A stretch of DNA of 64,000 bases from Lachnospiraceae bacterium V9D3004 (GTDB taxonomy: Bacteria; Bacillota; Clostridia; Lachnospirales; Lachnospiraceae), in assembly GCA_000621985.1 (NCBI GenBank), contig JHWW01000014.1:1-64000 (forward strand). Direction: 5' to 3'. Numbering within the stretch: the first letter of the stretch is position 1; each line of letters begins with the position of its first letter. Position numbers and translations under genes: made by a program. This document shows, piece after piece, positions 878-25,464 of this stretch. Below the pieces are notes generated by a model. It did no database searches. It was not told the DNA's origin and saw only the letters and a program-made list of their open reading frames with translations.

Positions 878-2971
878 CTATATAATCAGATTCGACATCG
901 TACCATAGCAGGTCACATAGGCTCCTGCTCTGGCTCTTGTCAGTGCCACATAGAGCAGGCACTTCTCTTCCGTCTCGAACTCTTCCAGCGATATATCATC
1001 CGAAAAGTCACTACGGACTCCGTTCGGAAGAGCTTTGTTGTTTACTCCGGCAGCAAAGATATAATTGAACTCAAGACCCTTTACTCTATGCATTGTGGCG
1101 ATACGCACTTCATCTCTGGAACGATCATCAACCTTGTTCGTTGTGATCTCGAACACATCGATCCCGTTATTCCTCAATCCGTCTTTGTAGCCGTTTATCA
1201 GCTTATGAGTTCTTGCAACGAGGCAGATATCCTTTCTCGGAATGCCTGCTGCCTCAAGGTCTTTGATCTCCTTCACGATAAACTCCAGCTCTTCCTCCGG
1301 AGTATTAAACTTCTGGATCACCGGCTTTTCACCGTGAGTCAGAGACTGGCAGTTATCGCCGTCATCATATTCTTCATCCATATCATCGAACGACACGCCC
1401 TTAAGGAGTCCGAAAGCATACTTTCTGATTTCCTCAGTTGTCCTGTAATTGATGCGAAGCTTTCTTGCCCTGCCGCGTACATTGATACCGCACTTGGAGA
1501 GAATCGCCTTATTACGATAGATTCTCTGGTGAGCATCGCCGACGATAAAGATATCATTTTTATGTGCCTCTCCTGCCAGAGCACGGATCAGCCTGAATGC
1601 ACTCGGACTGAGATCCTGTCCCTCATCCACGATGATGCTTTCATATCTTCCGGCGGAGAATTGCTTCTCCAGAATGATACGGCACTCATACATAGCAAAC
1701 TCTGAATCACGAAGCTTCTTCTCATCCATGAGGTTCATGTATTCTTCAAATACACCCCACACCTTCATACGTTTGATTCGGTCAAGCCGAAGACCTCTTC
1801 CGATACGGGATGCTTTAATATATTTCTCTTTCGTATAAGCTTCCTGTGCCTGCACAACCTTGATCCACTCATCAATGTAGAAGTTCTTGGTATAATCAAG
1901 TGATCCGCCGGCCTGTGCAATAGCATCATCCCAGATCTTATCAAGCTCATCTCCATAAGAGATGTTGTACTCATACCCCTGATCCCGAAGGAATGAAGCC
2001 ACCCAGGCATCAAGGTTTATGACCTCTATCTTCTTCATCTGATCCATGGATGCGATCTTACGAAGGTTTTCCCGGATATCATCAGCCAGATTCCTGGTGT
2101 ATGTTGTGAAAAGAACTCTCTTACCCAAAGGAAGATCTGATGCCAGTCTCTTCGCCCTATGCATAGCTACGACAGTTTTACCGGTACCGGCTCCGCCCAA
2201 CACTCTTGCGGGACCCGAATAATCTCTGTTCACGATCTTTCTCTGTGTCGGATGAAGGAAGATCCTCCATTTTTCAAGAGGCTCTGCCATAATGCGTTTC
2301 AGTTCCTCTTCGCCATCCACAATGACAAAAGACTTCTTGCTGGAATCCGACTGAAGAGCTGCAGCAAAATCATCTTCCTTAACCAGCTCTGCTTCATCTT
2401 CATACAGAGTCTCAATCACTTCATCGTAATCGAAACCATGAGCCACCCATTCCAGCCCTTCGTATGCATCCTCCGGAATGCTCTTTTTCATCGCATAGAA
2501 CTCATCCATGGTCTCAATACTCTTGATCATTGGAATCTGTTCCTCCGGAAGTCCCATACGGATCAACTGATCATCTGTGTAAGCAGCAAAGATCGTCTCC
2601 TTCTCTACCTGCTTTTCGACAGCCACTTCCTGAACATCAAATACCTGAACACCACCCGTGACCTTATTGATGGAGCACTTCTTGCGTTTTGCCCACGCAT
2701 AAGCTTCATCGTGATGATCTACCCAGAGAAGCATGTACACATTCGTATCTGGGCATCTGACCACGATAGCCCTGTATGTATCATCAATACGGACAGAACA
2801 TATATTCTTATCAATACCTTCATCAATCTTTTCATAATTGATTCCGGGAGAATTTGGATTGGTACGGAACTTATTGAAAAACTCCGTCGCTTTTCCCTGC
2901 TTTTGCTTCGGTAGTGATGCAAAAGAGGTTAGAAAATCCGTTGAAATCGCAACCATGGGCTTATCCATCAT
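878..2971 (-). CDS. UvrD/Rep-type SF1 helicase with N-terminal RelE-like domain
   Basis: A 697-residue protein. Residues 1-100 resemble a RelE/ParE-superfamily fold: a compact alpha/beta stretch ending in SVRIDDTYRAIVVR and LLWVDHHDEAYAWA. The rest is a superfamily 1A helicase: HPTQRKIV, Walker A GGAGTGKT near residue 260, IIVDEGQDLSP as Walker B, NYRTTEEI, ATMHRVKGLEF and VALTRAR at the C-terminus. The start overlaps the stop of the upstream giant helicase gene by 4 bp (ATGA) behind GGAGGTGAAGG, so the two are translationally coupled. Such RelE-fused UvrD proteins recur in bacterial accessory regions, but I do not know a defined role. In this operon it probably unwinds or tracks DNA. Whether the RelE-like part cleaves RNA is unknown. 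Confidence 0.8.
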   Translation of the reverse strand: MMDKPMVAISTDFLTSFASLPKQKQGKATEFFNKFRTNPNSPGINYEKIDEGIDKNICSVRIDDTYRAIVVRCPDTNVYMLLWVDHHDEAYAWAKRKKCSINKVTGGVQVFDVQEVAVEKQVEKETIFAAYTDDQLIRMGLPEEQIPMIKSIETMDEFYAMKKSIPEDAYEGLEWVAHGFDYDEVIETLYEDEAELVKEDDFAAALQSDSSKKSFVIVDGEEELKRIMAEPLEKWRIFLHPTQRKIVNRDYSGPARVLGGAGTGKTVVAMHRAKRLASDLPLGKRVLFTTYTRNLADDIRENLRKIASMDQMKKIEVINLDAWVASFLRDQGYEYNISYGDELDKIWDDAIAQAGGSLDYTKNFYIDEWIKVVQAQEAYTKEKYIKASRIGRGLRLDRIKRMKVWGVFEEYMNLMDEKKLRDSEFAMYECRIILEKQFSAGRYESIIVDEGQDLSPSAFRLIRALAGEAHKNDIFIVGDAHQRIYRNKAILSKCGINVRGRARKLRINYRTTEEIRKYAFGLLKGVSFDDMDEEYDDGDNCQSLTHGEKPVIQKFNTPEEELEFIVKEIKDLEAAGIPRKDICLVARTHKLINGYKDGLRNNGIDVFEITTNKVDDRSRDEVRIATMHRVKGLEFNYIFAAGVNNKALPNGVRSDFSDDISLEEFETEEKCLLYVALTRARAGAYVTCYGTMSNLII

Positions 2972-5900
2972 CCTTCACCTCCAAATTTGTCTATAGTCAG
3001 TTTTTCGTTCGTCAAAAGGACTGTCCATCCTTCATGTTTGAATACTTCTGCATATTCTTCCTGTTCAGGCAACAGCAGGACTACCATCTTTTCCGTCCAC
3101 GCCATAGATGCCTCGCCGATTACTGCTCCGTTCTTATTGCTTTCGAGCTCGTAACCAACCTCATCCGGTGCCGGAATATGATTCTTCATCATCTCTGTAG
3201 CGCAAGCCTTCTCGACATCATCCAGATAATCGTAGATGTCTTCCCAACCGCTCATATCGGTATCAACTACTGTTCCGCCCGGTGTACTGTCTACATCAGT
3301 TCCGGTGTGGTCATCCGGGATCAAAGCTGTATAAATTGAAGCTGCGATACCCTTTCTGGTCATGAACAATGCATCACCGATAAACTGCATATTGTTGGAG
3401 AAGCTCAAAAAGCCATTCCAGTCCTTGTTGTAGTTATCCGTGCGACTGTCATTATCATTCAGGATCGCGAGCACCCGTATTGGTGCATCCATCTTCTTAT
3501 CCCGATCATCCATGGAAAGCATTGAGTAAACCCACATATTACCCAGAGTCTGTCTCGGCTCCCACATACCGTAGATAGCCTTACCGTATTCATATATCCT
3601 TCTCAGGCTGTCCATGCTCTTATATGCGCTGTCCCAGTCTGTAACCTGGACATTATAAGCGTCCTGCTTATCCATCAATGTGTAATCCAGCACAGAGAAC
3701 GCAAACGCTTTGGCATGAACGGTAAAGAGTTCCTCAGCATTTGAACGGCTCAGGTACTCAATGAGCAGTTCAAACGGACTCTTCTCTGCCGGAAGCAGAT
3801 CCTGCGCATTCATAGCCTTCACATAGGACATATACATCTTGGAACCATTCGGCAACTTGTCATACAGCCATGTATCGGTCTTGTAGTCTCCCTTTGATTT
3901 GAAGACTTCCTGCACATCGTTATAGGAAAGAGACCATACCCTGTACTTACCGCTTTGAATGATTGCCATACGCTTCAGGAAATCATCTGCCACATTGTCT
4001 TTATGGAAGGTAAATCCATCCGTAAATACAGCCACCGGCTTCTGCGATCCGGTTGTACGCACAGGCCATAAGACAAAGTCCGGACGGCATTTCACCGCCA
4101 CACCTTCGGCGGTTCCAAAATCTACCTGAGGCTCAATATCCCAGGTGCATTCACCTATCTTTAAGGAATAACCTTCCTTCTCGTTAACCAGCTTCTTATT
4201 AACGGATACCATCCTGTTCACAGATCCCAGACGATTTAATGCCTCCAGGAACTGACGCTCCAACTCGCTCCCGATAAGCGGATTCGTATCAATCAGGGAC
4301 AGATTCTTGATCTTCTGAAGATTGCCCTGACCTGACAGAATACTTTTGAACATGGATAACGCCGCACGCCTTGAAATCTCACCGATATGCTGGCTCTGCC
4401 TGTAGGCATACAAACATTTGTAGCATCCATCCTTGCTCTCATAATCTTTGCAAGTACACTTTTCCATCGTATCCACGGCAAGTTGCATAACATCAATCAT
4501 GCCATGCTTGTCGTTCATCAGCTGACGCAGATACCCTGTTCCTCCCGGAACTGTATCGTAAATAACTAGATACTGATTCTTGTAATCGGCATCTGGAACG
4601 GGAACCTCACTTACTGTAGCCGCCAGATGATCAATATTACCGAACTTCTTTTTCATTCCCAGCATGAATGCCGCAACAAAGGATTCCACTCTCACATTAG
4701 AAGTATCCAGAGACGTGGACGGAACGAGGATACGGATAGCCTCAGTCGTAAACTGTCTATAAAGGAACAGACACTCCTCATACATCTGCTGAATAGGATT
4801 CGTATTAGCATCCTTTATTACACGACAGAATCTGGTATGCTGAGGTGGTTTATTAGGAAGCTGGATTTTTCCACAGAATTTGCATATTGTAAAGCCCTTG
4901 CGAACAGCTTCTTCTCCTGCGACAAAAATTTTCTCACCACTCAGATCTTTTTCGCCAAAGTTGATTTCCCGCATGGTAGCCTTCTTAACGAACTCATATC
5001 CAAACGGAAACTCTGCATTATCCATCCGGTACGCAGGCTCTATATACTTGTCATCTTCAACTTCCACCAACATTTCCTTGTTATAGAACTTGGCGGTACG
5101 GTCATCGCTGTCTTCGCTGTTCACGCTGTCCTTGTATCTCATGTTGGAGTACACCATCTGTACCTTCAGCATAGGACGTACTTGACCGGCATCTCCCCAT
5201 CCGGGACTTCCACATTTATCACAGGCGATATGTGGCTTACTAGAATTTTCTAGTTCTGCATGCGAACAATTCGGGCACAGTCTCCATCTTTCAATTTTTG
5301 TTGTATTAATATCCACCTGGTCAATATTCAGTTTTTTCCCTCCGGCATAAAAACTATTCAGCGGAGCAAATTCACTAATAGCAGCTGATGCCGAACGATT
5401 AAATTCATATATGTATTTCTCACTTTTAGGCTTTTCATCTTCTTCCAAAGGTTCTGTACGTAAAAGGATTGCCTTTAATACTATACCCGCCTCAGGGAAT
5501 GCGTAATTTGGCAACAATCCCTGATCAGACATGAACTCAAAGGTGTTTCTCTCATTTATGTCATGAACCACCCTTCCAAGAGCAGCCTTTTCACTTCGAA
5601 GATCTGACATTTCCTCATCATAAGAAGAATCCTTTGGCTTGTTTTTCAATTGCTTAATCATAGAATCCAATTCTTCAATATTTAACTGAATTGTTTTTTT
5701 ATGTTCCTTTATGATTCGAAACTCTTCAAATATTCTGCTATGAAGAGTCTCACCACCTTGACCGTCACCCATCGCAAAGCGGGTAATCTCCTTCTTTGCA
5801 TTCTCATCCAAACCATCTTCTCCGTTTGCACTGGCATTGAACGTCTGAATAAATGTACGAACCAACTTAGACAAGTTGTCCTGAACATATTTCAGATAAT

Positions 5901-8900
5901 TAAATGGAAATCTCTTCTTATTCTTGCTATCCAAAGTTGTCAAAATCTGATTCAGTTTAGGCGGTATCTCTGCCTTTCCAGTCTTCACCCATGAATCCAT
6001 ACAGTATGCCATAAACTGCCTTACCAAAACTGAAGTAGCCTTAAGGAATATCCTTGGAGGTTCCACACTACCGGTAATCATCTCTTTAGGCTCCGCATAG
6101 AAGTAGAGATCATGTGGTCTTGCATTTGCCACTGCAATAACTAAAGAATTACCATCTGTTCTACCCCCTCGACCAGCTCTCTGAGCATACTGTGCCTGTG
6201 CCGGAGGTATTGAACACATTACTACCGTGGACAGATCACCAATGTCAATACCCATTTCAAGAGTAGGTGTACATGAAAGAAGGTTTGCATCCCAGGGCAT
6301 CTGCGCTTTATTATTCTTCTTAAAAATGCGCTCCAATTCTTCTCTCGCTTCTCTTTCCAAGAGTCCGGTATGCTCCCTTGCAACGACACGCACCATTTCA
6401 CCATTGCTATAGAGTTTCCCATAGAAATCAAGACCTTCATCCGTAGTTTCCACATAATGACCATAACAAGCAGTACGCAAACAGCACATTTCATCTGTAC
6501 TGTGCTGATTCTTCTTTGCTACAGTTATCTTGTTACCACAGATATCACAGACCATCTGAACCGTATCACGGCTGACGATAGTTTTCTCATAGCTGATTCC
6601 CCATGCTGGGATATCATCTGGTCCTTTTAACCTGTCAACAGTTCCCATTTTAGTCAATTCATCCAGTATAACAGGTAAAATTATCTCACAATCAACTTCA
6701 CTTTTTATTACTGATAAATATTTACTAATCCACTTTCCATACCATGAGCGTCTGGACACATCATCGAAAAACCAATTCTTCTTTGCTTTTCCTCCAACAG
6801 TTATAAATTTAGGTGCATTTCTTCCTTCACGCATACCAGGCAGCCACTTGTTATCACGGTAAACATACTTGTTCCCACCATTTTCCACATATGAATTATA
6901 AATAGGGTTAGAAAATGCGCCGTTCTGCTTCATGGTAAGGAGAACACCCATGATCATCCGCTCACACTCTTCCTCACTCAGGCCATCCAGTAGACCATGC
7001 TCGCTGATTACTCTGTCAAGAATTCTCTTTGCAGCTCCATCCAGATAAAAAGCTGTCACACAGCAACCTGACTTTTCCAAAGAGCGACCGATACGGGCAG
7101 ACATGCCAAACTCCAGCATCATTTCATATTCCGCCCTCTTAGTAACAGACTCCATAAAACCGACTCCATCTTTATCCGCGATCCATACACCTTTACTGAT
7201 CAGTTTGTCGTATCCTCTCATCCATGTAAGAGAAGGTGCCGCGAAGTAAGACAGAAACTTTTCATTTCCCATCTCTTCTTTCCAATACTGTACGCATTCT
7301 TCCGTGAAGTCCTTCAGTGACTTCTCCTCTTCCTGCTGCATGGAATACTGCTGCATGGCAGTTCTAAGTCCGAATCTCCACGTCCTTGAATTGTAGAATC
7401 CGGCATGGTGAGATGCATCCTGCACATTATCCGTGAAAGCAAGTAACTTCTTGTCATCATTAAAGTGTGACGCGTAAAGCTCTGATACACTCGCACTGAT
7501 TGCTGTAGCGCTTCTTACACCCATGATGGCAAGTCCGCCACGGCTTCCGCAGAACGGGCACACGAAATTCTTTCCTCTTCCTGATCCGGCTGTTTCCGGC
7601 TGGAATGACCATACCGGGAATGTCCTGTATCCATTGCTGGAAAGCTGGCCTTCACGTTCTTCCAGTGAAAGCTCCATATCCTCAGGAGAAAGCACTTGCC
7701 TCTCATCGGGAGTTACCTCTGCGCTCTCATCCTTCAAGTGAGGGAATATAATCCTGATCCTCTTATCGCAGTCAAAGTACAGGTTATAGAATGTGGAAAG
7801 GTCACCAAGCTCGATACTTCCCATCTCATTTACAACAGTAGCCCATCCCGTCTCACCACAGTCACGGCAGTTTACAACCGGCAGATAATGCTTTGCTTGC
7901 ATCTCATTCAGATCGGATGCAATGGCAAAATCGATATCTTTATCATCTACCTTCGCCATCAAACGACGAAGCTCTCTTACCCATACCTGCACTTGTACTG
8001 TCAGGAACGGGTGCAGTTTTCCCTTTGAATCATAAGTTCTCGCATGTGATATAAGTGCATACAAAGCTTCTAAAGCAGAAGAAGCTTCTTCTCCAAGCTC
8101 TGCAAACTCGCGAAACCTTTCCTCCAGTTCTTTTGCTGTTCCACTGCTTTGTCTGTACTGTCCCTTCGCTCTTGTAATCAGCTCGCGGAATACACTGTGC
8201 TGTTTTAAGATAGTACCCAGCTTTACTCTCTCATCAACACTTGATAAATCTTCACCCTTGTAATCTTCGATCCACGCTTCCGCCGCTGTATGCAGATATT
8301 TATCCATATCATCCTGAAGAACAAGTGAATCAAGTTTCTTCGCCATTTCCCTGTCGGGGATCTGGAAATACTCCACTTCTTCTCCGGCAAAATATTCTTC
8401 CGGAGAAAGCCTGTCCTCTGTAACAATAGAATCTTCCTCGAACACCTCTCCAAAGATGTCCTCAGCATAGTTACGGATATTGCCGTTACTTTCTTCTCCA
8501 CCCATTGTTGCAGATGTTCCGATACAACAGAGATGTCCCGGCAGGATATTCAAGCGCACCTTCAGTCTCCTGAGCAGGCACGCCAGATCAGTACCCTGAG
8601 CACCATCAAAGGTATGAAGCTCATCAACTACGATATACTTTAAAGTCTCCGGCTGATTCCACTTCCACAGTTCCGCATCCTTCGGTCGGACAAGCAGATA
8701 ATCCAGCATCTTGTAGTTCGTCATCAGAATATCCGGAGGAGACGCAAGAAGCGTTTCATGATCCGTGATAACCTTATCCGGCATCATCATCTTAGTCGCA
8801 TTCTTCTCTTGACCACCGACATACATACCGACACGGACTTTTGCTTCCTTAAGCTCCGAACTGCTGTTGATCAGTTCAGCCATACGTTTTGCCTGATCAG

Positions 8901-9309
8901 CAGCAAGAGCATTCATGGGATAAATAATAAGTGCTTTGATACCGTTCTCACCACGATGCCTATAGCAATACTCCAAGATAGGGTACAGGAAACACTCCGT
9001 CTTACCGGAACCGGTTCCCGTAGCCACAAGTGTTGACCGTCCGTCTTCACCGGTCAGTCTGCTGAATGCTTTCTGCTGATGAACATATGGCGTATACACC
9101 TGATGAATGGACTGAAAGATATTCTCTGCTCCATCAGCCACACGGAAAGGAAGCCTTACCGCTACATATGGTTCGTGAAAGACTTTCTTTGGCTCCGACA
9201 ACATATTCCTGAGTGAATCCTTAAATACCAGATTCGTTATCGGAAATGTCGTTTCAATGTAATCTTTTAGGCCGCTTTGTATCTGTCCTGCCAGAACTGA
9301 TGGAATCAT
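2968..9309 (-). CDS. Giant SF2 helicase with DUF1998 zinc domain and C-terminal nuclease-like domain (DrmA/DrmB-like fusion)
   Basis: A 2113-residue protein. N-terminal SF2 motor: Walker A ATGTGSGKTE near residues 96-105, VVDELHTF near 228-235, TSATMGG, then a second RecA lobe with TLEMGIDIGDLS and QRAGRGGR. A Cys-rich region follows (LCPNC...CDKCGSPGWGD, ICKFCG...FC). Then comes a DUF1998/MrfA-type zinc-binding block, YDTVPGGTGYLRQL...CTCKDYESKDGCYKCLY. After that, SELERQFLEAL...CRPDFVLWP...VAVFTDGFTFH...YRVWSL resembles a Vsr-like PD-(D/E)XK fold. In DISARM the helicase (DrmA) and DUF1998 protein (DrmB) are separate chains; here both activities are on one chain, which is my inference from domain order. 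It overlaps the downstream gene by 4 bp and sits 29 bp after the DUF2971 gene. A central AT-rich stretch (about 5.3-6.8 kb) contrasts with both ends. Confidence 0.82.
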   Translation of the reverse strand: MIPSVLAGQIQSGLKDYIETTFPITNLVFKDSLRNMLSEPKKVFHEPYVAVRLPFRVADGAENIFQSIHQVYTPYVHQQKAFSRLTGEDGRSTLVATGTGSGKTECFLYPILEYCYRHRGENGIKALIIYPMNALAADQAKRMAELINSSSELKEAKVRVGMYVGGQEKNATKMMMPDKVITDHETLLASPPDILMTNYKMLDYLLVRPKDAELWKWNQPETLKYIVVDELHTFDGAQGTDLACLLRRLKVRLNILPGHLCCIGTSATMGGEESNGNIRNYAEDIFGEVFEEDSIVTEDRLSPEEYFAGEEVEYFQIPDREMAKKLDSLVLQDDMDKYLHTAAEAWIEDYKGEDLSSVDERVKLGTILKQHSVFRELITRAKGQYRQSSGTAKELEERFREFAELGEEASSALEALYALISHARTYDSKGKLHPFLTVQVQVWVRELRRLMAKVDDKDIDFAIASDLNEMQAKHYLPVVNCRDCGETGWATVVNEMGSIELGDLSTFYNLYFDCDKRIRIIFPHLKDESAEVTPDERQVLSPEDMELSLEEREGQLSSNGYRTFPVWSFQPETAGSGRGKNFVCPFCGSRGGLAIMGVRSATAISASVSELYASHFNDDKKLLAFTDNVQDASHHAGFYNSRTWRFGLRTAMQQYSMQQEEEKSLKDFTEECVQYWKEEMGNEKFLSYFAAPSLTWMRGYDKLISKGVWIADKDGVGFMESVTKRAEYEMMLEFGMSARIGRSLEKSGCCVTAFYLDGAAKRILDRVISEHGLLDGLSEEECERMIMGVLLTMKQNGAFSNPIYNSYVENGGNKYVYRDNKWLPGMREGRNAPKFITVGGKAKKNWFFDDVSRRSWYGKWISKYLSVIKSEVDCEIILPVILDELTKMGTVDRLKGPDDIPAWGISYEKTIVSRDTVQMVCDICGNKITVAKKNQHSTDEMCCLRTACYGHYVETTDEGLDFYGKLYSNGEMVRVVAREHTGLLEREAREELERIFKKNNKAQMPWDANLLSCTPTLEMGIDIGDLSTVVMCSIPPAQAQYAQRAGRGGRTDGNSLVIAVANARPHDLYFYAEPKEMITGSVEPPRIFLKATSVLVRQFMAYCMDSWVKTGKAEIPPKLNQILTTLDSKNKKRFPFNYLKYVQDNLSKLVRTFIQTFNASANGEDGLDENAKKEITRFAMGDGQGGETLHSRIFEEFRIIKEHKKTIQLNIEELDSMIKQLKNKPKDSSYDEEMSDLRSEKAALGRVVHDINERNTFEFMSDQGLLPNYAFPEAGIVLKAILLRTEPLEEDEKPKSEKYIYEFNRSASAAISEFAPLNSFYAGGKKLNIDQVDINTTKIERWRLCPNCSHAELENSSKPHIACDKCGSPGWGDAGQVRPMLKVQMVYSNMRYKDSVNSEDSDDRTAKFYNKEMLVEVEDDKYIEPAYRMDNAEFPFGYEFVKKATMREINFGEKDLSGEKIFVAGEEAVRKGFTICKFCGKIQLPNKPPQHTRFCRVIKDANTNPIQQMYEECLFLYRQFTTEAIRILVPSTSLDTSNVRVESFVAAFMLGMKKKFGNIDHLAATVSEVPVPDADYKNQYLVIYDTVPGGTGYLRQLMNDKHGMIDVMQLAVDTMEKCTCKDYESKDGCYKCLYAYRQSQHIGEISRRAALSMFKSILSGQGNLQKIKNLSLIDTNPLIGSELERQFLEALNRLGSVNRMVSVNKKLVNEKEGYSLKIGECTWDIEPQVDFGTAEGVAVKCRPDFVLWPVRTTGSQKPVAVFTDGFTFHKDNVADDFLKRMAIIQSGKYRVWSLSYNDVQEVFKSKGDYKTDTWLYDKLPNGSKMYMSYVKAMNAQDLLPAEKSPFELLIEYLSRSNAEELFTVHAKAFAFSVLDYTLMDKQDAYNVQVTDWDSAYKSMDSLRRIYEYGKAIYGMWEPRQTLGNMWVYSMLSMDDRDKKMDAPIRVLAILNDNDSRTDNYNKDWNGFLSFSNNMQFIGDALFMTRKGIAASIYTALIPDDHTGTDVDSTPGGTVVDTDMSGWEDIYDYLDDVEKACATEMMKNHIPAPDEVGYELESNKNGAVIGEASMAWTEKMVVLLLPEQEEYAEVFKHEGWTVLLTNEKLTIDKFGGEG

Positions 9310-9338
9310 AGCCTACCCTCCTGTACCCTTTCAATTTT

Positions 9339-10349
9339 TTATAATATAAAACCACATAATTCTTTCAAAAAAATACGTTTTATAGTTCCATACTGTAGTA
9401 TATTTTTTTTCTTACCATTTATTTCTCTATCAAAAAATTTGTCCAATTTCAATTTATCCAATTTATGTTTTGTTAAATTAAATCTGCCGATATCAGGAAG
9501 TACTATAAAAAGAGGAATGTCTTTTTCATTTGCATAACTAATTATTCTATTTAAATTATTTATTCCTTCTTCTGAATTATCACCAAAACAATTTTTCAGA
9601 AAATGAGTTCCAAAAATTATTTCTTTTATTCTTGGAACATTTATAAGATTAAATCTTGGTTTTCCTTCATCGTCAGGAAGCAATGGTGAGATTAATCTCC
9701 ATTCCTGTTCATAGCTCCATATTTCAAACTTACATAGAACAGATAGCATAACTGCAAGTTCTATACCGTGTTGATTTTTTTCGCTTTTGTCAAATAACAG
9801 TTGTGCAACATTCACAGGTTTGGATCTATACGCAACGGGAAATGCATATTTTTTGAATAAATCATTATCACCATTCGTATCATATTTTAAGCACAAGCCC
9901 GTATTATTATTTGCATAATGCGCCCACATTAGAATTGAACTATCTATTGTAGAAAAACAGCAAAAATGTGCTCCAAGATAATTAACTGTATTCTTTTTCA
10001 ACTCAGCTTCTTTTTGATATATTATTTTACTTTTATTTCTGAAATAATTGTTATTCCCTCCTATAGCTGACAATCCTTCCAAATCTTTATCTACAAGAGC
10101 ATCTAATTCTTCATCGTTTGAAAAAATACACATTGTGGAATCAAAAATATCATTATATTCACTAGCAGCTGAAAGTGTTAATGAGTTATTCACAATATCA
10201 TCAACAGAATACTTAGATATACTCCTATATCTACACAAACAAGGTATTTTATTCGGAATTATATATTCTATTTCTTGGTCAGATTTATTAAGCTCTGTTA
10301 TTATGCGTTCTCTAAAATCTGTATCTTGAAGCAAAGCAGAAAAGATCAT
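9339..10349 (-). CDS. DUF2971 domain protein
   Basis: About 336 residues. It shows the hallmarks of DUF2971: CCFSTIDSSILMWAHYANNNTGLCLKYD in the middle, then FEIWSYEQEWRLI, and a C-terminal segment with IKEIIFGTHF. No biochemical role is established for the family. It appears in accessory and defence neighbourhoods, which is general knowledge rather than something shown here. I chose the ATG at 10349 because AGAGGTG lies nine bases before it; a GTG at 10361 that overlaps the methylase stop is also possible. The gene lies between the methylase and the giant helicase on the same strand, so it belongs to the operon. Its DNA is visibly more AT-rich than the helicase gene, which suggests later insertion into the operon. 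Confidence 0.78.
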   Translation of the reverse strand: MIFSALLQDTDFRERIITELNKSDQEIEYIIPNKIPCLCRYRSISKYSVDDIVNNSLTLSAASEYNDIFDSTMCIFSNDEELDALVDKDLEGLSAIGGNNNYFRNKSKIIYQKEAELKKNTVNYLGAHFCCFSTIDSSILMWAHYANNNTGLCLKYDTNGDNDLFKKYAFPVAYRSKPVNVAQLLFDKSEKNQHGIELAVMLSVLCKFEIWSYEQEWRLISPLLPDDEGKPRFNLINVPRIKEIIFGTHFLKNCFGDNSEEGINNLNRIISYANEKDIPLFIVLPDIGRFNLTKHKLDKLKLDKFFDREINGKKKNILQYGTIKRIFLKELCGFIL

Positions 10350-10357
10350 TCTTTTAT

Positions 10358-13300
10358 TCACCTCTTAAATCTTTTTTCAAAATTCATCCAAACTTCTTCA
10401 TAGTCTTTTTCCCTGTCGCAACGATCAAACGGTGCAACATATTCGATGATCCGCTCTGCTGGACCACCTGGCATGGTATCATCCGTTTTAACTTGAGTAA
10501 TTATACCATTTGATTTATCTTTTACTTCTTCCCATTCTTTCCTATGTAATCCGACACCATTCAAACCTCGATTAACCGTAAAAACAATTCTTCCACTTTG
10601 GTCGTACCATGTATCCGACTCATATGTTTGCAGGACTGGGAACTGAATTCGATATATAGTCTTCAGCTGTTGTAGTGTCATTCCAAGAGCCATTGCAACA
10701 AGAACATCCAGTTCGACCAAAGCTTCTCTTCTTTCATAGTCAGATCTCAACGCACATTCGTATGACCACTCTTTTTTTACTCTTTGAATTGGATTTAACT
10801 CCAACCTATCATCAATTTTTGCCCAACAATCATTAGAAAAGGTTTCTTCAAATTCCTTGTCCCAAAGTTTTGCATAATTCTTGGTTAAACAGTTTAGTCG
10901 AAGAGACCTAAGTGCTATGCAACCAGCGTATTTCCATTTATCAAAGACTGGAAACGCTGCAAAAGTATCGATACGTCCATTTGATTTTCCTGTGATTCTT
11001 AAATAAAAATCATAACAAAGAGAAGCCATAGATCCAGCAATTACTGATGTATTTTCCTTAAAGGACATACCAAATATTCCATTTATAAATGCCGTAGTTG
11101 GCGGAAGAATGGCTGTCACAAGCGTTCTTTCACCGCTTAGATTCAGCATCTTTCTGGAACAGACCATATATTGCTCATTGATTATATTTCCCCACGGAGT
11201 TGTGGTTATTTTGCTATTATAATCAGACCTATTGGTCGCCACAGAATAGTTTATCCTTTGAATATATGTCTCTGACGTAATGGTTAAATCAATCTTGTCA
11301 TAATCACTATTTAAAACACATTCTCGTCTTGATGCCTTAAATAACGGGTTGGCAACACCTATATGCGGTCCCGAGAAAATTGCATCTGCTAAACTCTCTG
11401 GAAAATGCACATTACGAACAATAACACCTTTTTTCTGATCATTTGCCTCGTGCCACATTTCAGAGCTTGCAACGGTGTCTCCCAAGCTGCCAATGGTCCT
11501 TTCTTGCTGAGCAAAACATTTCAGCACATCTAAAAACTCTACGGCATGAATAACCGGCAAACGTGCCGTTTCCCATTTGTCATTACCATCAAATAATTTT
11601 GAAAAGACAGCCAATTCATCTTTTCCAATCGGAACTACTCTATCTTTATGCCCTTTTATTTCCCATTTACCGTCTTGATCTTTTATTCCTGGAACCACAT
11701 CATCATTGGTCGAAGAATAACTTTCTTCAATTGTTGATGTAGTAAACAAATTGGAAATCAGCTCAAATGAGCTCGTTTCTTCATTTCCATAAACATTTAG
11801 GCTAAAAGTCATATGATGATCCACCTCAGCGAACAGTTTCAATTCGTTCACAAACTGATAATGTCGCCTGAGTTTCTGGTATAGTTTTTTCCTTAATAAC
11901 TCACCATTTGGATCATCAAAAATGCTATCTGGATGGACAAATGCACTAATCCCTGTTTTTTGTCCAAGCATCCAAGCAAGCGGAATAAAGCATTTATACA
12001 GGTTTGTCTGTTGCCCCTTAAGCAACTTATAATTCTCATATGCATTTATATAATTCTGTGTGCCAGACATGCTTGTATATTCACTCATATACGATGCTCT
12101 TTGCACCTCATTTTTCAACTCATCATTTCTAATAGAAGCTGTCTGGGCGGCGTTAAGCTTCTTCACAGCAAACATAGGATTTTTATCTGACATCATTGCC
12201 TGCTCATTCCAAGTCATCTTTAACCACGGCGGATTTCCGATAACAAGATCAAATCCACCTCTCTCATAAAAAAGATCAGCAAATTCAAGCTCCCAATGCA
12301 TAAATCTCTGCTGTTTTGCTATATCATAAGCAGCCTGTAATCTCGGATAAAGATTTCGTATCTGCTCAAGGTTTACCACACCCAAATCACTAATTTGTGC
12401 CTGAACTTCATTTGCCAATGCACTACCCTGTGTTCCTAATCCTATATAATATCCTTGTTCATCAAACATCATTTTGTGCTGCCAGACATCTATATTCTTT
12501 TTAACAGTTGGTGATATCCCACCTTCCAAAATCAATGATAAATCCATAAAAAACTGTTGTCGTGTAGGAAGAAGATCAGCCTGATCAATAGGCCAAAACC
12601 AAAGTGCACACCAATAATCCATAGCTGCTTTTAATCTCGCGTATGGACTGGCATTTTCACCACCTATTGACTTGTATATATTCTGATAAATCATATCTTT
12701 TTCACGAATAGTCAGATGCTCTTCATAAGCTCCTTCATCATGTCCGTACACACTCAAAGAATCTTCTGTGCGGATTTCCACTCTCTGACGGGCATTGATC
12801 GTTCTCATCCAGAGATCATCTACAATATCAGAAAGCTTATTCAGAATCTCGATATCTTCATCCGAATACTTCGAACAGAAATCCTTCTGCCACTGCTTGA
12901 TGAGCTTGATGTTATCTGGCTCTAGTTCCTTGATGACCTTATCTGTATAGCTTGCCATGCCGGGATCACCCAACAGGAAGTGATAGATATAGGAACCGCC
13001 GGAACGTTTTCTCTTATACTGCTTCTTTGTCTCATGGCTATAACGATCTGTCACCCATTCTTCCGGTACCTTTTCCGGCTCTTCGTTATACCAGGTACCC
13101 TTCTTCAGTTTCAGAGCATTATATACCTGCCTTCTCGCACCGATCAGGGAATTACCGCAGGCAAGCTGTGTACCGAACCACGGCACATGAGCACCTTTGT
13201 ATATCGTATTCAGCCACAGAGAAACCTCAGCCAGTTCCACAGCGATAGGATTTAAGTCAACACCGTAGACATTTCTGTCAGCGATAAACATTTTCACACG

Positions 13301-15133
13301 CTGCAGCTCTGCCGTTCTTTTATCAAAAGCAATCTGCTCTCCCAGTTCTTCCTGTTTCTTCTCCAGATATGCTTCTGCCAGCTGCGAGATTGCTTCATTC
13401 AGGAAGGCTGCGGAACCCATAGCAGGCTCACATACCGTCATGTTCAAAATCTCATCAGCGGTCTTATCCTTAAGAAGTTCTTTGAGAGCATACTTAACCA
13501 GACACTTTGTCAAAACCTCCGGCGTATAGTAGGAAGCGGACTTCTCTCGCTCTCTACCCGCCAGTCGGTATATGAAAGTGCCTTTTTCATACATACGGAG
13601 TTTGCCCTTGCGCTCGTAATCCTCATAGCGGACACGCTCTTCCTCCGTATACTTATCCAGCTCTCGCTCCGGAACGAAATATCCTACATCAAGCTCATTG
13701 AACTTGTCTCCGGCACGCTTTACTTCATACAGATCTTCTTCCGCTATGAATCCGCGGTAGCTTAAGAGTGCCTCGTAAACAGCTCCCATCTGGTTAATTC
13801 CGAGAGCGGAATAAGATATTCTTCCCCTTCTCTCACGGTTGTTAGTTGGTCTCGAAATACTCATTAGATCCACGATCTTCAGCATCGTCACATTGCGAAG
13901 CTTCGCTTCATTGATGAGCTTTGTATACTGAGGATCAAAGATATGCGCCTTCAACGGCTCAATCGTAAACATGAATTTCGGCGACTCTATCTTCAGCGCT
14001 TCTTTATATGCTTCCGGATCTTCCGGGTAGCCTGTATAGATCAGCTCAAAGAGTGAGGAAATCGTTTCATCGATGTAATAACCATCTTCTGCCTCTGCGG
14101 ACACTTCCCGAACACTCTCACAGACATCACGGACACCTTCCAGAGAATATCCCTTCTGATATACATCCGATTTCATCGGAGCAAATCCAAGCTCCTCTCT
14201 TGCCTCGATAAAGAGCATGAAAAGGATACGGTACATATACCGCAGACACTCGATGGTCAGTTCTCCGGCATCCACAGGGTTTTCATCAAAGTTCACCTGC
14301 TGCCTTGTCCTCATATCGTAAAGAACTTCATTTCCGAGAAGCTCAATACACTCACGAAGAGCATATTTCAGGGAATCCGATACGCTGGAACTGTGCTTAT
14401 GGGAATTCTCATCAAGTGCGTCAAGCAGACTGTTTCCTTCTGCAGGACACAGGCTCTCCTTATGAAGAAGAACTGCTAGTGCCTGGAATGTAGTCTCCTC
14501 ATGTCGGCTGAATATTTCTTCAAGATCGAACCGAAGATACTTTTTCTTATCCCATTTATTTCTATCAATCAATGCAATTTGGTTAATACCAATTAGGATG
14601 ATCCATCTGGGTGCCTCATTACCTGCAAAGAACAGTTTTGCTAGTAAATCATCATTCTTTTCGGCAAAATCTGTTCCGAACTCTTCAGTTTCTGCATTCA
14701 TCCTTCCAAATACTCTACCCATCAAAATATCATCATAACGTTCTTCTGCAACGGAAAGCAACACCCATAAAAGCGGAGCGCCATTAGGCTTTCTTACTTC
14801 ATGGAATACTGGTACAACTATTTCTTCATTCAAATCTATATTTATACTGTCCGGTTCTCCATAACCAAGAGCAGTCATATAATCTGCAGCCTGATCTTCT
14901 ATAAGTATGCGGCTTCCTTCTTCATTGCGCAGCTGAAGATACTTATCACGGATACGATAATAATTCTTTGAAGTATCACGAAATGCAGCCCAAGGTGTTG
15001 CGCCACCATTATCCTTAGCGATCTTCCTCCAATTTGAAATGGTGCCAGATGCATTTTCCTCAAATATTGTATTGAAATAATGATTAGTATAATATTCATT
15101 TTGATTTAAAATACCATGTAAATCCATTGCCAT
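10358..15133 (-). CDS. Large DNA adenine N6-methyltransferase (DrmMI/PglX-like)
   Basis: A 1591-residue class I DNA methyltransferase of the Eco57I/PglX kind. Motif I is VCEPAMGSAAFLN near residue 565 (SAM binding). The catalytic motif IV is DLVIGNPPWLK near 965, the NPPW form typical of N6-adenine enzymes. The N-terminal 500 residues and the C-terminal region (IYRIQFPVLQTYESDTWYD, GRIVFTVNRGLNGVG) are like those I associate with class 1 DISARM methylases. Expected role: marking self DNA. It starts one base after the SNF2 helicase stop, behind a GGGGGT ribosome site. The conserved N-terminal half is GC-richer than the C-terminal half that should hold target recognition, consistent with exchange of specificity. 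A BREX PglX is the alternative, but no PglZ or BrxC is nearby. Confidence 0.85.
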   Translation of the reverse strand: MAMDLHGILNQNEYYTNHYFNTIFEENASGTISNWRKIAKDNGGATPWAAFRDTSKNYYRIRDKYLQLRNEEGSRILIEDQAADYMTALGYGEPDSINIDLNEEIVVPVFHEVRKPNGAPLLWVLLSVAEERYDDILMGRVFGRMNAETEEFGTDFAEKNDDLLAKLFFAGNEAPRWIILIGINQIALIDRNKWDKKKYLRFDLEEIFSRHEETTFQALAVLLHKESLCPAEGNSLLDALDENSHKHSSSVSDSLKYALRECIELLGNEVLYDMRTRQQVNFDENPVDAGELTIECLRYMYRILFMLFIEAREELGFAPMKSDVYQKGYSLEGVRDVCESVREVSAEAEDGYYIDETISSLFELIYTGYPEDPEAYKEALKIESPKFMFTIEPLKAHIFDPQYTKLINEAKLRNVTMLKIVDLMSISRPTNNRERRGRISYSALGINQMGAVYEALLSYRGFIAEEDLYEVKRAGDKFNELDVGYFVPERELDKYTEEERVRYEDYERKGKLRMYEKGTFIYRLAGREREKSASYYTPEVLTKCLVKYALKELLKDKTADEILNMTVCEPAMGSAAFLNEAISQLAEAYLEKKQEELGEQIAFDKRTAELQRVKMFIADRNVYGVDLNPIAVELAEVSLWLNTIYKGAHVPWFGTQLACGNSLIGARRQVYNALKLKKGTWYNEEPEKVPEEWVTDRYSHETKKQYKRKRSGGSYIYHFLLGDPGMASYTDKVIKELEPDNIKLIKQWQKDFCSKYSDEDIEILNKLSDIVDDLWMRTINARQRVEIRTEDSLSVYGHDEGAYEEHLTIREKDMIYQNIYKSIGGENASPYARLKAAMDYWCALWFWPIDQADLLPTRQQFFMDLSLILEGGISPTVKKNIDVWQHKMMFDEQGYYIGLGTQGSALANEVQAQISDLGVVNLEQIRNLYPRLQAAYDIAKQQRFMHWELEFADLFYERGGFDLVIGNPPWLKMTWNEQAMMSDKNPMFAVKKLNAAQTASIRNDELKNEVQRASYMSEYTSMSGTQNYINAYENYKLLKGQQTNLYKCFIPLAWMLGQKTGISAFVHPDSIFDDPNGELLRKKLYQKLRRHYQFVNELKLFAEVDHHMTFSLNVYGNEETSSFELISNLFTTSTIEESYSSTNDDVVPGIKDQDGKWEIKGHKDRVVPIGKDELAVFSKLFDGNDKWETARLPVIHAVEFLDVLKCFAQQERTIGSLGDTVASSEMWHEANDQKKGVIVRNVHFPESLADAIFSGPHIGVANPLFKASRRECVLNSDYDKIDLTITSETYIQRINYSVATNRSDYNSKITTTPWGNIINEQYMVCSRKMLNLSGERTLVTAILPPTTAFINGIFGMSFKENTSVIAGSMASLCYDFYLRITGKSNGRIDTFAAFPVFDKWKYAGCIALRSLRLNCLTKNYAKLWDKEFEETFSNDCWAKIDDRLELNPIQRVKKEWSYECALRSDYERREALVELDVLVAMALGMTLQQLKTIYRIQFPVLQTYESDTWYDQSGRIVFTVNRGLNGVGLHRKEWEEVKDKSNGIITQVKTDDTMPGGPAERIIEYVAPFDRCDREKDYEEVWMNFEKRFKR

Positions 15134-15134
15134 A

Positions 15135-17984
15135 TCAATTTACCCCCGTTATAACTGCGATAATCTGAATATATGGATTATTCTTAATCTCAATAGAATC
15201 CTTCTCCCATTCGCAAAAAGCATCAAACATTTCTTCTATTTCCCTCTCCTTTTCAGACTTCTTTCGTTGCTGTCCGAGAAGATCATATATCGAAAGCTGT
15301 GCATCTTTATGTCTTTCCTTTAATACCTCCAGTCTCTCCAGCTCATTATATATATACGGTTCTGTGCGTTCTTTATATTCATTATACTTTACATCCATTA
15401 TTTCATTTGAATTCTTTACCACATCCGGAAGCAAGCTTTCACCAAATGCTACAATATCTTCCGTAATCGTATTATGATTAGGCAGCTTATCAGCAGTCAA
15501 ATGTGTTTTTCCAATAACCTCTGTCATAGTCATCATTCCACTATACTTTCCATCTTCATATAACAAAGCAAACCACTCATCCACCACAGATATGGAATTT
15601 CTATTAGGAAACTGTCCTTCTACAATAAATAACAATTCTTTAGAACTAATACCATTTGCCAATGCTATAAAAGGAACCTCACCTCTGCGATAAAGAATGC
15701 CCGCTTTATCATTAATCCATGCAAAAATAGGATGTAGTTTCCAAAGAAAACCTGTTGTAGGCCAAGCTAACTCTGTAAGAGCGTTTGCCATACACCTCTC
15801 CATCTCTTTTTTGCAGAAATTCACATCCGGGGATAGTCTCATTATATTATCCACTGGCATTGCTTCGTCTGGAAGCACTTTTTTCAACTTCTTTTTTATT
15901 TCGTCGGTAAGCTTGATGTTCAAACCCTTTACTGATTGCATTTCTCTTACCTCTATGCATTCTGTATCAGCAAATTCAGAAAAGGCGTTCTTAATATATT
16001 CTGTGTCATCGTACAATGTTTCTTCATCACTATATTCTATTTTTACAGCAGACTCCTTTGAAGTTGCCATCTGCATCATCATTTCAAAAGGATCAAACGC
16101 TTCTTCAACAAGGTCCAATTGCGACCCGAAATCATCTGCACTCATATCTCCTTCAATTGCTTTAGCAGTCTCTAACTCTTCTTCCTCTTGATTGAATTTA
16201 CCGAAAAGAACTGCAGGATCACCAATGTTCTTATACGCCTGTTCTTCCTTCTGTATAAGGATTTCCATGATACGCGCATCCCCATGTATTTTCTTATTAT
16301 CAGAACCAATCAGCATATAACGAATATCAGGAGTTTCCTTCTGACCATATCTATCAATACGTCCATTTCTTTGTTGAAAAACCATAAGAGACCAAGGAAT
16401 ATCAAAATGTATCAACCGGTGCGAAAGGTAGTGCAAATTGATTCCTTCGGAAGCCACATCAGATGCAACAAGTATACGTATTAATGACTCCGGTCTACCA
16501 AACTCATCCACGATACGCTGAAGTTCTTTATCATTCATCCCCCCGTACATTGACTGGATAGACTTTTGTTTAAGCCCCAAATCTTTCTGAAGATTTTCCG
16601 TTAAATACTTCATGGTCTCTATACGCTCAGTAAATATCACAATACGGTCACTGTTATTCTGGGGATTCCAACCATATTCCTCACTTTTAAGTATCTTAAG
16701 TAATGTAGTATAACGTGAGAAGTCCTCAGAATTAACCCTCATGAGTGCATCGCGCAACTCTTTTAACACTTCAATATCTGAAATTCCTTTCTCCCCATAT
16801 TTCTTCTCTAATTTTTTCAATCTCTCATTAATACTTTTAATACATGCTGCCGGACTAGAGAATAATGCTTTTTCCAGGTTGGTTTTAAAAAGCTGTCCGC
16901 TTCCTTTTGTACTTATCTCATCCATCTGCAATTTCATTTCCGCAAAAATTTCAAAGGCATTTTCTTCACTTGCTGAAGCTTTGCACTCATGAATGCTAAT
17001 CTTTCTTTCCTTGAAAGACCCTTTAACCTGATCCTGTACATCTTTCTTAAATCTGCGAATGCATAGACCATCTATATCTTTCGGACCATAATCCTTATCA
17101 TTTGCTATTGCTGTAGGATCCAGCATATTCATAAGAGAAGCAAAACTCTCAGATTTTCCATCATGTGGTGTTGCCGATAACATAATCATCGTATCCGATT
17201 TATTGGCAAGAAGCTTTGCCAACTTTTCTCTCTGAGAATGTTTACCCCGCTTTGCAACATTATGAGCCTCATCAATCACAATAATGTCCCACCATGCATT
17301 TTCCAGATGAGTTCGATAATCCAGATCATTTTTTAACGTATCCACTGAAATAATAGTCTTGTCATAATAATAGAACGGGTTATAGTTTGCAGGAATCCTT
17401 GCACGTATTCTTTGAATCTTTCCGGAATCTAATCTCACAAGCGGAATTGTAAAACGATTCCACATCTCTTTCTGGAACTGTGTCATCATACTCTTAACTG
17501 TAACTACCAAAATGCGCTTACCTTTACCTCTGACTATTAGCTCACTCATTAAAATCCCAGCTTCAAGAGTCTTTCCAAGACCAACCGTATCAGCAATCAA
17601 TATACGCTGTCTTGTTCGATTAAGCGCAATCTGAGCCGGTTCCAACTGATAAGGCATAAGATCCATTGCCGCCTTATCACCAATATGTATTCTATTATCC
17701 GTCGGAATCTTCTGTCTAAGATGACTTTCGATATATAACTTAGATTTTTTAAAGAATGCTGAATTATCCGGTATCAACTTAACCTTTGCCGGATCAACAA
17801 CTTCTATATCTTTTTCGAGATCAGTCATAAAACAAGATTCATAATCCTTAACCAGATTAGAAATACCCACAACCTGAAGAGTTTGGTTGCCCAAGCTGTT
17901 TGTTTCAACTCTCTTCACAATCCACTCTTCACCACGAACTATTATTCTCATACCCGGTGCATACTTATCACACTTCAACTTCAT
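15135..17984 (-). CDS. SNF2-family helicase (DrmD-like)
   Basis: A 949-residue SWI2/SNF2-like SF2 translocase. Visible motifs are Q-region YQLEPAQIAL, Walker A ADTVGLGKTLEAG near residue 135, DEAH within IVIDEAHNVAKRG near 237, LSATPHDGK (motif III), and VASDVASEGINLHYL and QQRNGRIDRYGQ (motifs V and VI). The C-terminal third is typical of the long bacterial helicases that accompany methylases. This architecture, followed immediately by a giant adenine methylase, is the drmD-drmMI arrangement of class 1 DISARM. It is the first gene of the five-gene block. The ATG follows GGAGAAA, and a promoter-like sequence lies about 65 bp upstream. An alternative reading is a phage-type or RapA-like helicase, but the neighbours argue for defence. 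Confidence 0.85.
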   Translation of the reverse strand: MKLKCDKYAPGMRIIVRGEEWIVKRVETNSLGNQTLQVVGISNLVKDYESCFMTDLEKDIEVVDPAKVKLIPDNSAFFKKSKLYIESHLRQKIPTDNRIHIGDKAAMDLMPYQLEPAQIALNRTRQRILIADTVGLGKTLEAGILMSELIVRGKGKRILVVTVKSMMTQFQKEMWNRFTIPLVRLDSGKIQRIRARIPANYNPFYYYDKTIISVDTLKNDLDYRTHLENAWWDIIVIDEAHNVAKRGKHSQREKLAKLLANKSDTMIMLSATPHDGKSESFASLMNMLDPTAIANDKDYGPKDIDGLCIRRFKKDVQDQVKGSFKERKISIHECKASASEENAFEIFAEMKLQMDEISTKGSGQLFKTNLEKALFSSPAACIKSINERLKKLEKKYGEKGISDIEVLKELRDALMRVNSEDFSRYTTLLKILKSEEYGWNPQNNSDRIVIFTERIETMKYLTENLQKDLGLKQKSIQSMYGGMNDKELQRIVDEFGRPESLIRILVASDVASEGINLHYLSHRLIHFDIPWSLMVFQQRNGRIDRYGQKETPDIRYMLIGSDNKKIHGDARIMEILIQKEEQAYKNIGDPAVLFGKFNQEEEELETAKAIEGDMSADDFGSQLDLVEEAFDPFEMMMQMATSKESAVKIEYSDEETLYDDTEYIKNAFSEFADTECIEVREMQSVKGLNIKLTDEIKKKLKKVLPDEAMPVDNIMRLSPDVNFCKKEMERCMANALTELAWPTTGFLWKLHPIFAWINDKAGILYRRGEVPFIALANGISSKELLFIVEGQFPNRNSISVVDEWFALLYEDGKYSGMMTMTEVIGKTHLTADKLPNHNTITEDIVAFGESLLPDVVKNSNEIMDVKYNEYKERTEPYIYNELERLEVLKERHKDAQLSIYDLLGQQRKKSEKEREIEEMFDAFCEWEKDSIEIKNNPYIQIIAVITGVN

Positions 17985-18046
17985 GATATTATTTCTCCAT
18001 GTATTATCATAATTATCGTTTTCAGCAATCTACTCATCTGTAGATA

Positions 18047-18519: not shown

Positions 18520-18627
18520 AACACTCACCATACATTTCCATTTAATCTCAATTAAAAGATTCCAATTACAATGTACCATCTAATACATATTATTATAATC
18601 TGTCCGCCAAAGAATTCAACAAAAAAA

Positions 18628-18903
18628 TCACCGCCTCCTCTCCTTCAACTCCTTCACCTTAACAATCTCCTTCACATGATCCGGCATAGGTCTTGGATTC
18701 TCCCTGAACTGCTGTAAATACTGTTCAAATATCTCCGTATTCACCAACGCCGATTCACCCACCTTATATATCGCACCTGCCTTATCAGCATAATTCATAA
18801 ATGTAGTCTTTCCCATTCCGTATATTATAGAGCCTTCCGTTGCGTTGACGAACTTCTTCATAACATCCTTAACGTCTGAATATGTCTTATACGAATATGC
18901 CAT
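18628..18903 (-). CDS. DUF6462-like excisionase-family protein, single domain
   Basis: About 91 residues. The core ATEGSIIYGMGKTTFMNYADKAG-AIYKVGESALVNTEIFEQYLQQF is a winged-helix, MerR/excisionase-like unit of the sort found next to integrases in Lachnospiraceae mobile elements (family name from memory). Basic C-terminus KELKERRR. The chosen ATG follows GGGAG and sits one base after the stop of the upstream paralogue, so the two genes are coupled. The same unit occurs twice in that neighbour. Its expected job is DNA binding at an attachment site or as a small regulator. No integrase gene is visible in the window, so a present role in excision is uncertain. Confidence 0.7.
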   Translation of the reverse strand: MAYSYKTYSDVKDVMKKFVNATEGSIIYGMGKTTFMNYADKAGAIYKVGESALVNTEIFEQYLQQFRENPRPMPDHVKEIVKVKELKERRR

Positions 18904-18904
18904 T

Positions 18905-19351: not shown

Positions 19352-19405
19352 ATAGTATTTCCTTTCAGTTTTATTTGCAATACGCAACTCATGGTCTAAC
19401 CAGAA

Positions 19406-19574: not shown

Positions 19575-19672
19575 TCGCATTTTGGACGGTGATTTCAGTA
19601 ACTGTTACTGTTGTGGAATATGGTCGAAAACCCAGTGTTTTCAATGGTTTCACGACATCTGGCTGATTAGTG

Positions 19673-21178: not shown

Positions 21179-21202
21179 TCTGATCTTCCTTTCGAATATA
21201 TA

Positions 21203-21685: not shown

Positions 21686-21759
21686 AATAAAACTCCTCCA
21701 TTAACATAAAAAATGAAATATTACGATTCATTGTCAGTGACGTTAAGTTAATATCTCAA

Positions 21760-21850: not shown

Positions 21851-21934
21851 GTCTGTATATAACCAATGTCATTGATTTACAGTAACATTCGATTATTATA
21901 TCCCATACATATATCATTGTCAAATATGTAATTC

Positions 21935-25422: not shown

Positions 25423-25464
25423 TTTTCAACCCTCCCTGCAATGATATTCACAATATAGTGCGGA

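Follow-up and report, generated by a model that had tools for sequence, protein, structure and literature searches.

We report that the 64,000-nucleotide stretch of DNA formed by positions 1-64,000 of contig JHWW01000014.1 of Lachnospiraceae bacterium V9D3004 (the window; the contig begins at its base 1) carries an operon which, judged by homology, gene set and gene order, is an ARMADA type II antiphage locus with armA-armB-armC-armD in the published order, and into which a gene of the DUF2971 family appears to have been precisely inserted between armB and armC. That junction serves many ARMADA II operons as a slot, or hotspot, for the insertion of other genes. The operon represents a system class known since 2025 in a variant form, and the new part is the slot, of which we found no published account. 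The reading of the locus that we consider likely is that of an ARMADA type II operon carrying an embedded accessory gene.

Five long open reading frames (ORFs) lie on the minus strand within 878-17984 and encode an SNF2 helicase, an adenine methylase, a DUF2971 protein, a 2113-residue helicase and a UvrD helicase (Table 1). The original prediction for this DNA had described five tightly packed genes on one strand with 4-bp overlaps; the genes, their places and their strand stand, and the overlaps are found at only two of the four junctions (armB/DUF2971 and armC/armD), with 1 bp between armA and armB and 29 bp between the DUF2971 gene and armC. It had also allowed for the system being catalogued already under some related name, and that name is ARMADA type II. 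In Pfam, ArmA matches SNF2-rel_dom and Helicase_C, ArmB N6_Mtase and Eco57I, ArmC DEAD, Helicase_C and MZB, and ArmD UvrD. Among the PADLOC profiles ArmB is matched by REase_MTase_IIG (2.3e-262) and ArmD by those of GajB.

ARMADA was described by Bell et al. 2025 (PMC12458937), the text of which gives type II as ArmA (BrxHII-like), ArmB (PglX-like), ArmC (YprA-like) and ArmD (RelE plus a GajB-like UvrD) in strict order. The helicase of the system is further described as carrying BrxA-like and MarR-like insertions. Each of the four window chains shows full-length homology to its ARMADA II counterpart, the identities to the operon of E. coli MLI105 being 46.1% (ArmA), 45.0% (ArmB), 37.0% (ArmC) and 46.1% (ArmD), and the window ArmC aligns end to end, at 36% identity, with the reference ArmC WP_000937974.1, whose gene, on an E. 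coli chromosome, is flanked by those for the methylase and the UvrD protein. When the eight residue numbers that the text of PMC12458937 gives for its mutants were applied to the MLI105 proteins, the expected residue was found at all eight, and the window is identical at every one of them: K136 and D236 (Walker A and B) in ArmA, the N of NPPW and the G of the S-adenosylmethionine (SAM) motif in ArmB, K110 and D234 in ArmC, and K266 and D454 in ArmD. The window operon thus has the same four genes, order, sizes and catalytic residues as ARMADA type II, and differs from it in having DUF2971 inserted at the armB-armC junction.

The order A-B-C-D with all four genes present recurs in 45 surveyed loci (those in which all three gaps could be measured), which by their record titles span Bacillota, Pseudomonadota and cyanobacteria, and because so many loci share it the order is not a matter of chance. 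Exceptions are L033 and L063, where armB was not found within 10 kb upstream of armC, and L101, a distant relative outside the counts, which has C-A-B. The ARMADA II reference gene is present in 518 of 5426 E. coli genomes.

The evidence that DUF2971 is an addition to this operon comes from its closest relatives. Among the best 80 of 521 confirmed relatives, the nearest to the window is another Lachnospiraceae record, Lachnospiraceae bacterium UBA2864 (L032), whose proteins are 88% (ArmA), 87% (ArmB), 93% (ArmC) and 97% (ArmD) identical to those of the window; it has no DUF2971 gene, and its armB-armC gap measures 21 bp. A blastn comparison (E 1e-10) of window positions 1-26000 with 26.3 kb of this relative gave matches at 878-9325 and 10362-17986 only, which amounts to the operon without 9326-10361 and to no flanking sequence. 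The homology stops at the operon edges, which suggests that the whole operon was transferred in one piece from one genomic setting to a different one. DUF2971 is also absent from three operons with about 58% ArmC identity (L008, L009 and L014, of which L008 and L014 are nearly identical to each other), and a gain in the window is a simpler reading than losses in these three and in L032. The gene has a guanine-plus-cytosine (GC) content of 28.1%, compared with 45.6% for armD, 44.4% for armC, 40.7% for armB and 37.3% for armA. By these comparisons the DUF2971 gene is a precise insertion, probably a recent one. Taken with the slot and its cargo, described below, it is most probably an accessory gene for defence embedded in the operon rather than a core subunit. 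That DUF2971 is added, as first proposed, is upheld; its role as a conserved component of a subtype is not, the gene being an insertion at a recurrent site that is missing in the nearest relative. We considered DUF2971 as a conserved sixth gene and rejected this, as it has no match in any other of the 113 loci surveyed. A check of six-gene order across genomes had been suggested, and of that order A-B-C-D is what is conserved (in the 45 loci), not DUF2971 or the supposed extra nuclease ORF.

The slot itself emerges from a survey in which genome and viral collections were scanned with an ArmC alignment and loci from plasmids, E. coli and further genomes were added. From the genomes it took in the best 80 relatives mentioned above, flanks extended up to 10 kb, and start codons were uncurated. 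The 113 loci yielded 97 rows after 16 were dropped (no ArmC, or ArmC below 700 bits); 30 of these rows have no ArmB match and stand outside the 67 armB-armC junctions that were measured. A gap of at least 300 bp occurs at 27 of 67 armB-armC junctions (window included), at none of 48 armA-armB junctions and at two of 85 armC-armD junctions (347 and 302 bp). Fisher p values for armB-armC against the other two junctions are 4e-8 and 1e-9, which, the loci being related, serve as a guide only; with the repeats L002, L003, L012 and L013 removed the counts become 27/64 (armB-armC), 0/47 (armA-armB) and 2/81 (armC-armD). The junction is tight when empty, since the median armB-armC gap is 1 bp in the 40 loci with smaller gaps. 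Where scan loci offered at least 9.6 kb upstream of armC (n = 47), armB was adjacent in 21, at least 300 bp away in 24 and without a match in two. At least 700 bp is present upstream of armC in 19 of the 30 rows without an ArmB match, L033 and L063 among them, which suits further occupied slots and could also be losses of the gene.

The contents of the slot follow the operon. Of 67 cargo ORFs of at least 150 residues, 64 share the strand of the operon, and 26 of the 27 gaps hold an operon-strand ORF of at least 100 residues, that of L062 (100 residues) being doubtful. In 17 of 26 loci the start of the first cargo gene is no more than 30 bp from the armB end, and in six of these, including the window, the two overlap by 4 bp; in 16 of 26 the end of the last cargo gene is no more than 60 bp from armC. 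On a 63-row ArmC tree made with FastTree, in which long branches and unequal letter make-up were flagged, occupancy requires at least 19 changes; shuffled occupancy labels give a mean of 20.6 and a value as low in 136-139 of 500 draws, and the state is therefore not clustered, which indicates frequent gain and loss of cargo. Of four loci outside the survey, L137 is occupied, L138 and L140 are empty, and the proteins of L139 are the same as those of L015. The slot of L137 (8958-9884) encodes a 308-residue protein with a hydrophobic N-terminus, no PADLOC match and a 4-bp overlap with the armB end. The ArmC of L138 (9938-16288) is broken by one stop.

Several of the cargo genes match known defence systems. 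The PADLOC scan covered 26 hand-picked ORFs among the 75 slot ORFs of at least 100 residues, together with four others, and 21 of these 30 proteins have a match at 1e-10 or better; counted by slot, 14 of the 19 scanned (window included) have one. For instance, the slot of L075 has matches to Gabija (GajA 4.3e-289, GajB 4e-254) and that of L055 to Zorya II (ZorA2 2.7e-188, ZorB2 1.6e-98, ZorE2 2e-128), and further matches are to LeoA and LeoB (1.6e-245 and 5.9e-165; L085), TmtA (3.2e-252; L097), HEC-01A (5.9e-196; L082), a GmrSD-type protein (Orf5 4.2e-96, HEC-06 1.2e-59; L081), AbiEi (1.8e-57; L043) and a ThsA-like SIR2 protein (5e-31; L065). Pfam adds Schlafen AlbA_2 (L015, L075, L094), a protein kinase (L039), NO VEIN (L049), AbiEii (L074), and patatin and dynamin (L055). 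Peptidase-like proteins related to each other (31% identity) occupy the slot in L026 and in L069, which are unlike bacteria, and a further relative lies next to a third operon, that of L007. Genes resembling AbiEi/DUF6088 recur just upstream of armC in unrelated bacteria (L043, L068, L044); AbiEii adjoins armC in L044 and L074, and in L044 an AbiEi-like gene lies beyond it. DUF2971 was not found in any other slot examined, and the cargo of L083, the cargo of L095 and the first gene of L094 have no match in Pfam or PADLOC.

The DUF2971 protein matches PF11185 in Pfam (1.8e-9) and, in PADLOC, the defence candidate PDC-S31 (6.7e-36). Relatives were detected at 1e-8 in 5 of 299 genomes of the family, the window's own included and the other four weak (1.8e-10 to 9.5e-10). 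Relatives were also seen in 11 loci of the viral collection and in nine plasmid records. Across the relatives MWAHYANN is invariant and WxYExExR nearly invariant, a conservation which is overstated and partly built in, as the aligned relatives were found with seeds containing these motifs. A phmmer search against the Protein Data Bank (PDB) returned no matches at E 1, and an ADP-ribosyltransferase-like fold, considered because of its motifs, found no support.

Several observations weigh against our reading of an embedded accessory gene in a hotspot. One of the 27 gaps, that of L067, holds no ORF of 100 residues. The slot is nearly always empty in E. coli, where 514 of 518 genomes have at least 80% of the junction in one place, a count that may miss insertions shorter than about 800 bp because the search joins pieces that near; with so many intact junctions, occupancy depends on lineage. 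A BLAST-detectable relative of DUF2971 occurs in no other of the 113 loci, which leaves its link with ARMADA at one locus, and the AlphaFold model of the protein, built from 11 sequences, is poor (mean predicted local distance difference test score, pLDDT, 62) with no significant Foldseek match in the PDB (best E 0.71). Five of the 19 scanned slots (L015, L026, L083, L094 and L095) have no PADLOC match at 1e-10, and the helicase matches of L016 and L089 and the kinase match of L039 may reflect superfamily membership only. Defence genes also cluster with defence genes anyway, and the defence matches among the cargo may reflect no more than that.

As to what the operon is, the original prediction had proposed a distinct DISARM subtype in which drmA and drmB are fused and a set of nucleases replaces DrmC. 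Its broader claim, a DISARM-related and restriction-like antiphage locus, agrees with the DrmD match of ArmA (1.4e-104 in PADLOC; 356 bits against the NCBIfam DrmD model, under the model cut-off of 610) and the DrmMI match of ArmB (4e-61), and DISARM class 1 (drmD-drmMI-drmA-drmB-drmC) does have an SNF2 helicase and an adenine methylase related to those of the window. The subtype itself is contradicted by the profiles, the ArmC alignment and the partner genes. The best PADLOC profile for the giant chain is DruE1 (2.4e-110), with other DruE profiles heading the list, whereas DrmA matches it only locally (1.2e-15) and the NCBIfam DrmA models score 21.5 and 17.5 bits; the profile searches, which had been named in advance as decisive, place the chain nearer DruE than DrmA. 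Together with its end-to-end alignment to a published ARMADA II ArmC, this rules out a DrmA-DrmB fusion in favour of a one-chain helicase of YprA/DruE type. Where DISARM class 1 has separate drmA and drmB genes, the window has a single 2113-residue chain with a probable fused nuclease and an added RelE-UvrD gene, and neither a DrmB gene nor DrmC; the RelE-UvrD gene, first taken for an added component, is a core ARMADA gene, and for the supposed extra nuclease ORF neither a family match nor a relative in the 113 loci was found. We regard the DISARM subtype as hardly credible any longer. The profile list could alternatively be taken to indicate a Druantia (type III-like) system, and Druantia does provide, in DruE, the PADLOC helicase family nearest to the window ArmC. 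According to the text of PMC12458937, ARMADA helicases are most similar to those of Druantia. DruE is the nearest PADLOC model because PADLOC-DB 2.0.0 (2023) predates ARMADA. The druH gene that accompanies druE in Druantia III has no counterpart among the PADLOC matches listed for the six proteins (at most 25 for each), and the partners are different ones, an SNF2 helicase, a methylase and RelE-UvrD, which are the ARMADA II set. Druantia is accordingly a very improbable identity for the operon.

The role of DUF2971 within an ARMADA II operon allows more latitude. In this ARMADA lineage it might have become a working subunit, the fifth, for instance a sensor or a nuclease partner needed for activity, and being co-directional, with the 4-bp overlap at the armB end and 29 bp before armC, it is probably translated with the operon. 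The L032 operon (93% identical) and those with 58% identity nevertheless lack the gene and keep A-B-C-D open, the GC content of the gene is very unlike that of the arm genes, and unrelated genes fill the slot in other loci, all of which makes a subunit improbable. Alternatively, DUF2971 might be a passenger that makes use of operon expression and has no defence function of its own, whether as a selfish gene or by modulating ARMADA. A single-gene insertion at a single locus suits such a passenger, as does a family that moves on mobile elements (the viral-collection and plasmid records above); the PDC-S31 match to related sequences that PADLOC lists as a defence candidate, and the several other cargos of the slot that match known defence systems, speak against it, and we judge a passenger rather unlikely. 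A more ambitious proposal, possible and to be held only tentatively, is that armB-armC is a dedicated docking slot: arriving defence genes, or whole systems, would enter at the armB stop, frequently acquire translational coupling to the operon and form a guarded second layer, DUF2971 then being a new class of effector. Such a second layer would matter when a phage blocks ARMADA. The anticodon nuclease PrrC, which sits in a type I restriction-modification operon, is a likeness for a guarded layer of this kind.

Taking DUF2971 as an embedded accessory gene, we can outline how the locus might work. The text of PMC12458937 reports that E. coli ARMADA II protects against phages without abortive death, and that mutation of the ArmD Walker B or the ArmB SAM motif led to a loss of protection that was only partial. 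By analogy with E. coli, ArmA and ArmC, both superfamily 2 helicases, would act jointly with ArmB and ArmD against phage without killing the cell, with DNA cutting probably performed by the C-terminal nuclease of ArmC. From homology and the conserved catalytic residues we infer that the window operon, like ARMADA II elsewhere, blocks phage directly. Slot cargo is probably carried on the same transcript as the operon, and DUF2971, given its overlap with armB and shared strand, would be expressed with it. DUF2971 may then form a second layer that acts separately, perhaps as an effector kept in reserve for phages able to escape ARMADA.

Whether ArmC ends in a nuclease bears on this outline. The text of PMC12458937 places a nuclease of Vsr type at the C-terminal end of ArmC, and in a 52-row alignment of ArmC C-termini E30, D90, D110, G111, H115, D122, R126, W138 and D144 are invariant. 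The MTES_1575 nuclease family was matched by 11 of the 52 (best E 0.0077), the window's chain not being among the listed matches. The model of the C-terminal 459 residues has a mean pLDDT of 86; Foldseek returned nothing for it at E 0.001 or below, with the nuclease TnsA at rank 8 (E 0.35), and phmmer against the PDB gave weak matches only (best E 0.085). The assignment is plausible, and the ArmC C-terminus probably holds a nuclease. That the operon lacks a drmC gene had been noted correctly at the outset, as no operon protein has a phospholipase D match in Pfam (the contig ends at base 1), and the ArmC nuclease, if real, would explain this lack. The N-terminal domain of ArmD is clearly homologous to those of nine other ArmD proteins (40-75% identity). 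Of the RelE-UvrD gene as initially named, the UvrD part is confirmed and the RelE-like fold is weakly supported: the best PDB profile match is YoeB at E 0.025, and Pfam gives no RelE match at 0.001.

The slot joins a known class of arrangements in which a defence gene lies within the operon of another defence system. The available text of PMC11411939 and PMC12255303 describes tgvAB and DarTG2 embedded in type I restriction-modification operons (DarTG2 between hsdS and hsdR), and PMC11411939 cites the work of Payne and colleagues (2024) on the embedding of defence genes, or "guilt by embedding". The window is alike in that a foreign gene lies inside another defence operon, co-directional with it, and differs in that the host operon is ARMADA II; neither the armB-armC site nor DUF2971 cargo is named in the available text of these two papers. 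Inserted genes, DUF2971, Schlafen and Gabija have no mention in the main text of PMC12458937 (its supplements lying outside the search), and inserted genes of ARMADA II are likewise unmentioned in the available text of a later preprint, PMC13192584. A defence operon in which a single junction acquires other genes again and again, among them matches to known defence systems, suggests a "look in the slot" rule for finding candidate defence genes, examples being the cargo of L083, that of L095 and, in L094, the first gene. It also raises the testable question of whether ARMADA and its cargo work together.

Table 1. Features of the ARMADA type II locus in the window
Feature	Position	Strand	Description
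armA	15135..17984	-	949 residues; BrxHII/RapA-like (DrmD-like) SNF2 helicase
armB	10358..15133	-	1591 residues; PglX/type IIG-like adenine methyltransferase
Embedded DUF2971 gene, armB-armC slot	9339..10361	-	340 residues; listed start GTG
Inserted stretch	9326..10361	not assigned	No blastn match to L032; homology on both sides
armC	2968..9309	-	2113 residues; YprA-like helicase, MZB/DUF1998, C-terminal region with predicted nuclease
ArmC C-terminal 459 residues	2971..4347	-	Predicted PD-(D/E)XK (Vsr/MTES_1575-like) nuclease and following domain
armD	878..2971	-	697 residues; RelE-like domain and GajB-like UvrD helicase

Beyond armD, a 166-residue ORF on the minus strand (326-826) had been taken for a trailing PD-(D/E)XK gene of the operon. 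Searches of PADLOC, Pfam and NCBIfam at E 0.001 gave nothing for it, nor did BLAST at 1e-6 against the ORFs of the 113 loci, and a run of eight T interrupts its frame. With no family match, no relative and a broken frame at the contig end, it shows no link to the system, and we discarded a separate nuclease gene as a component. After this ORF, at about 1-170 on the minus strand, a fragment that by eye looks like a nuclease is cut by the contig end.

On the other side of the operon two DUF6462 genes (18628-19387, minus strand) lie between armA and lysS and are possibly a mobile-element remnant, the other border being off the contig. Downstream of the L032 operon (18579-26339) there are other genes, without nucleotide match to the first 26 kb of the window, one of which resembles by eye a DUF262/GmrSD protein. 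In L004, an E. coli plasmid (1-6012), and in L013, the MLI105 locus (1-991), a gene for a large DEAD/DEAH helicase ends just upstream of armA; by its position this is probably the DruE of Druantia III, an arrangement that agrees with the pairing of Druantia and ARMADA already in the literature.

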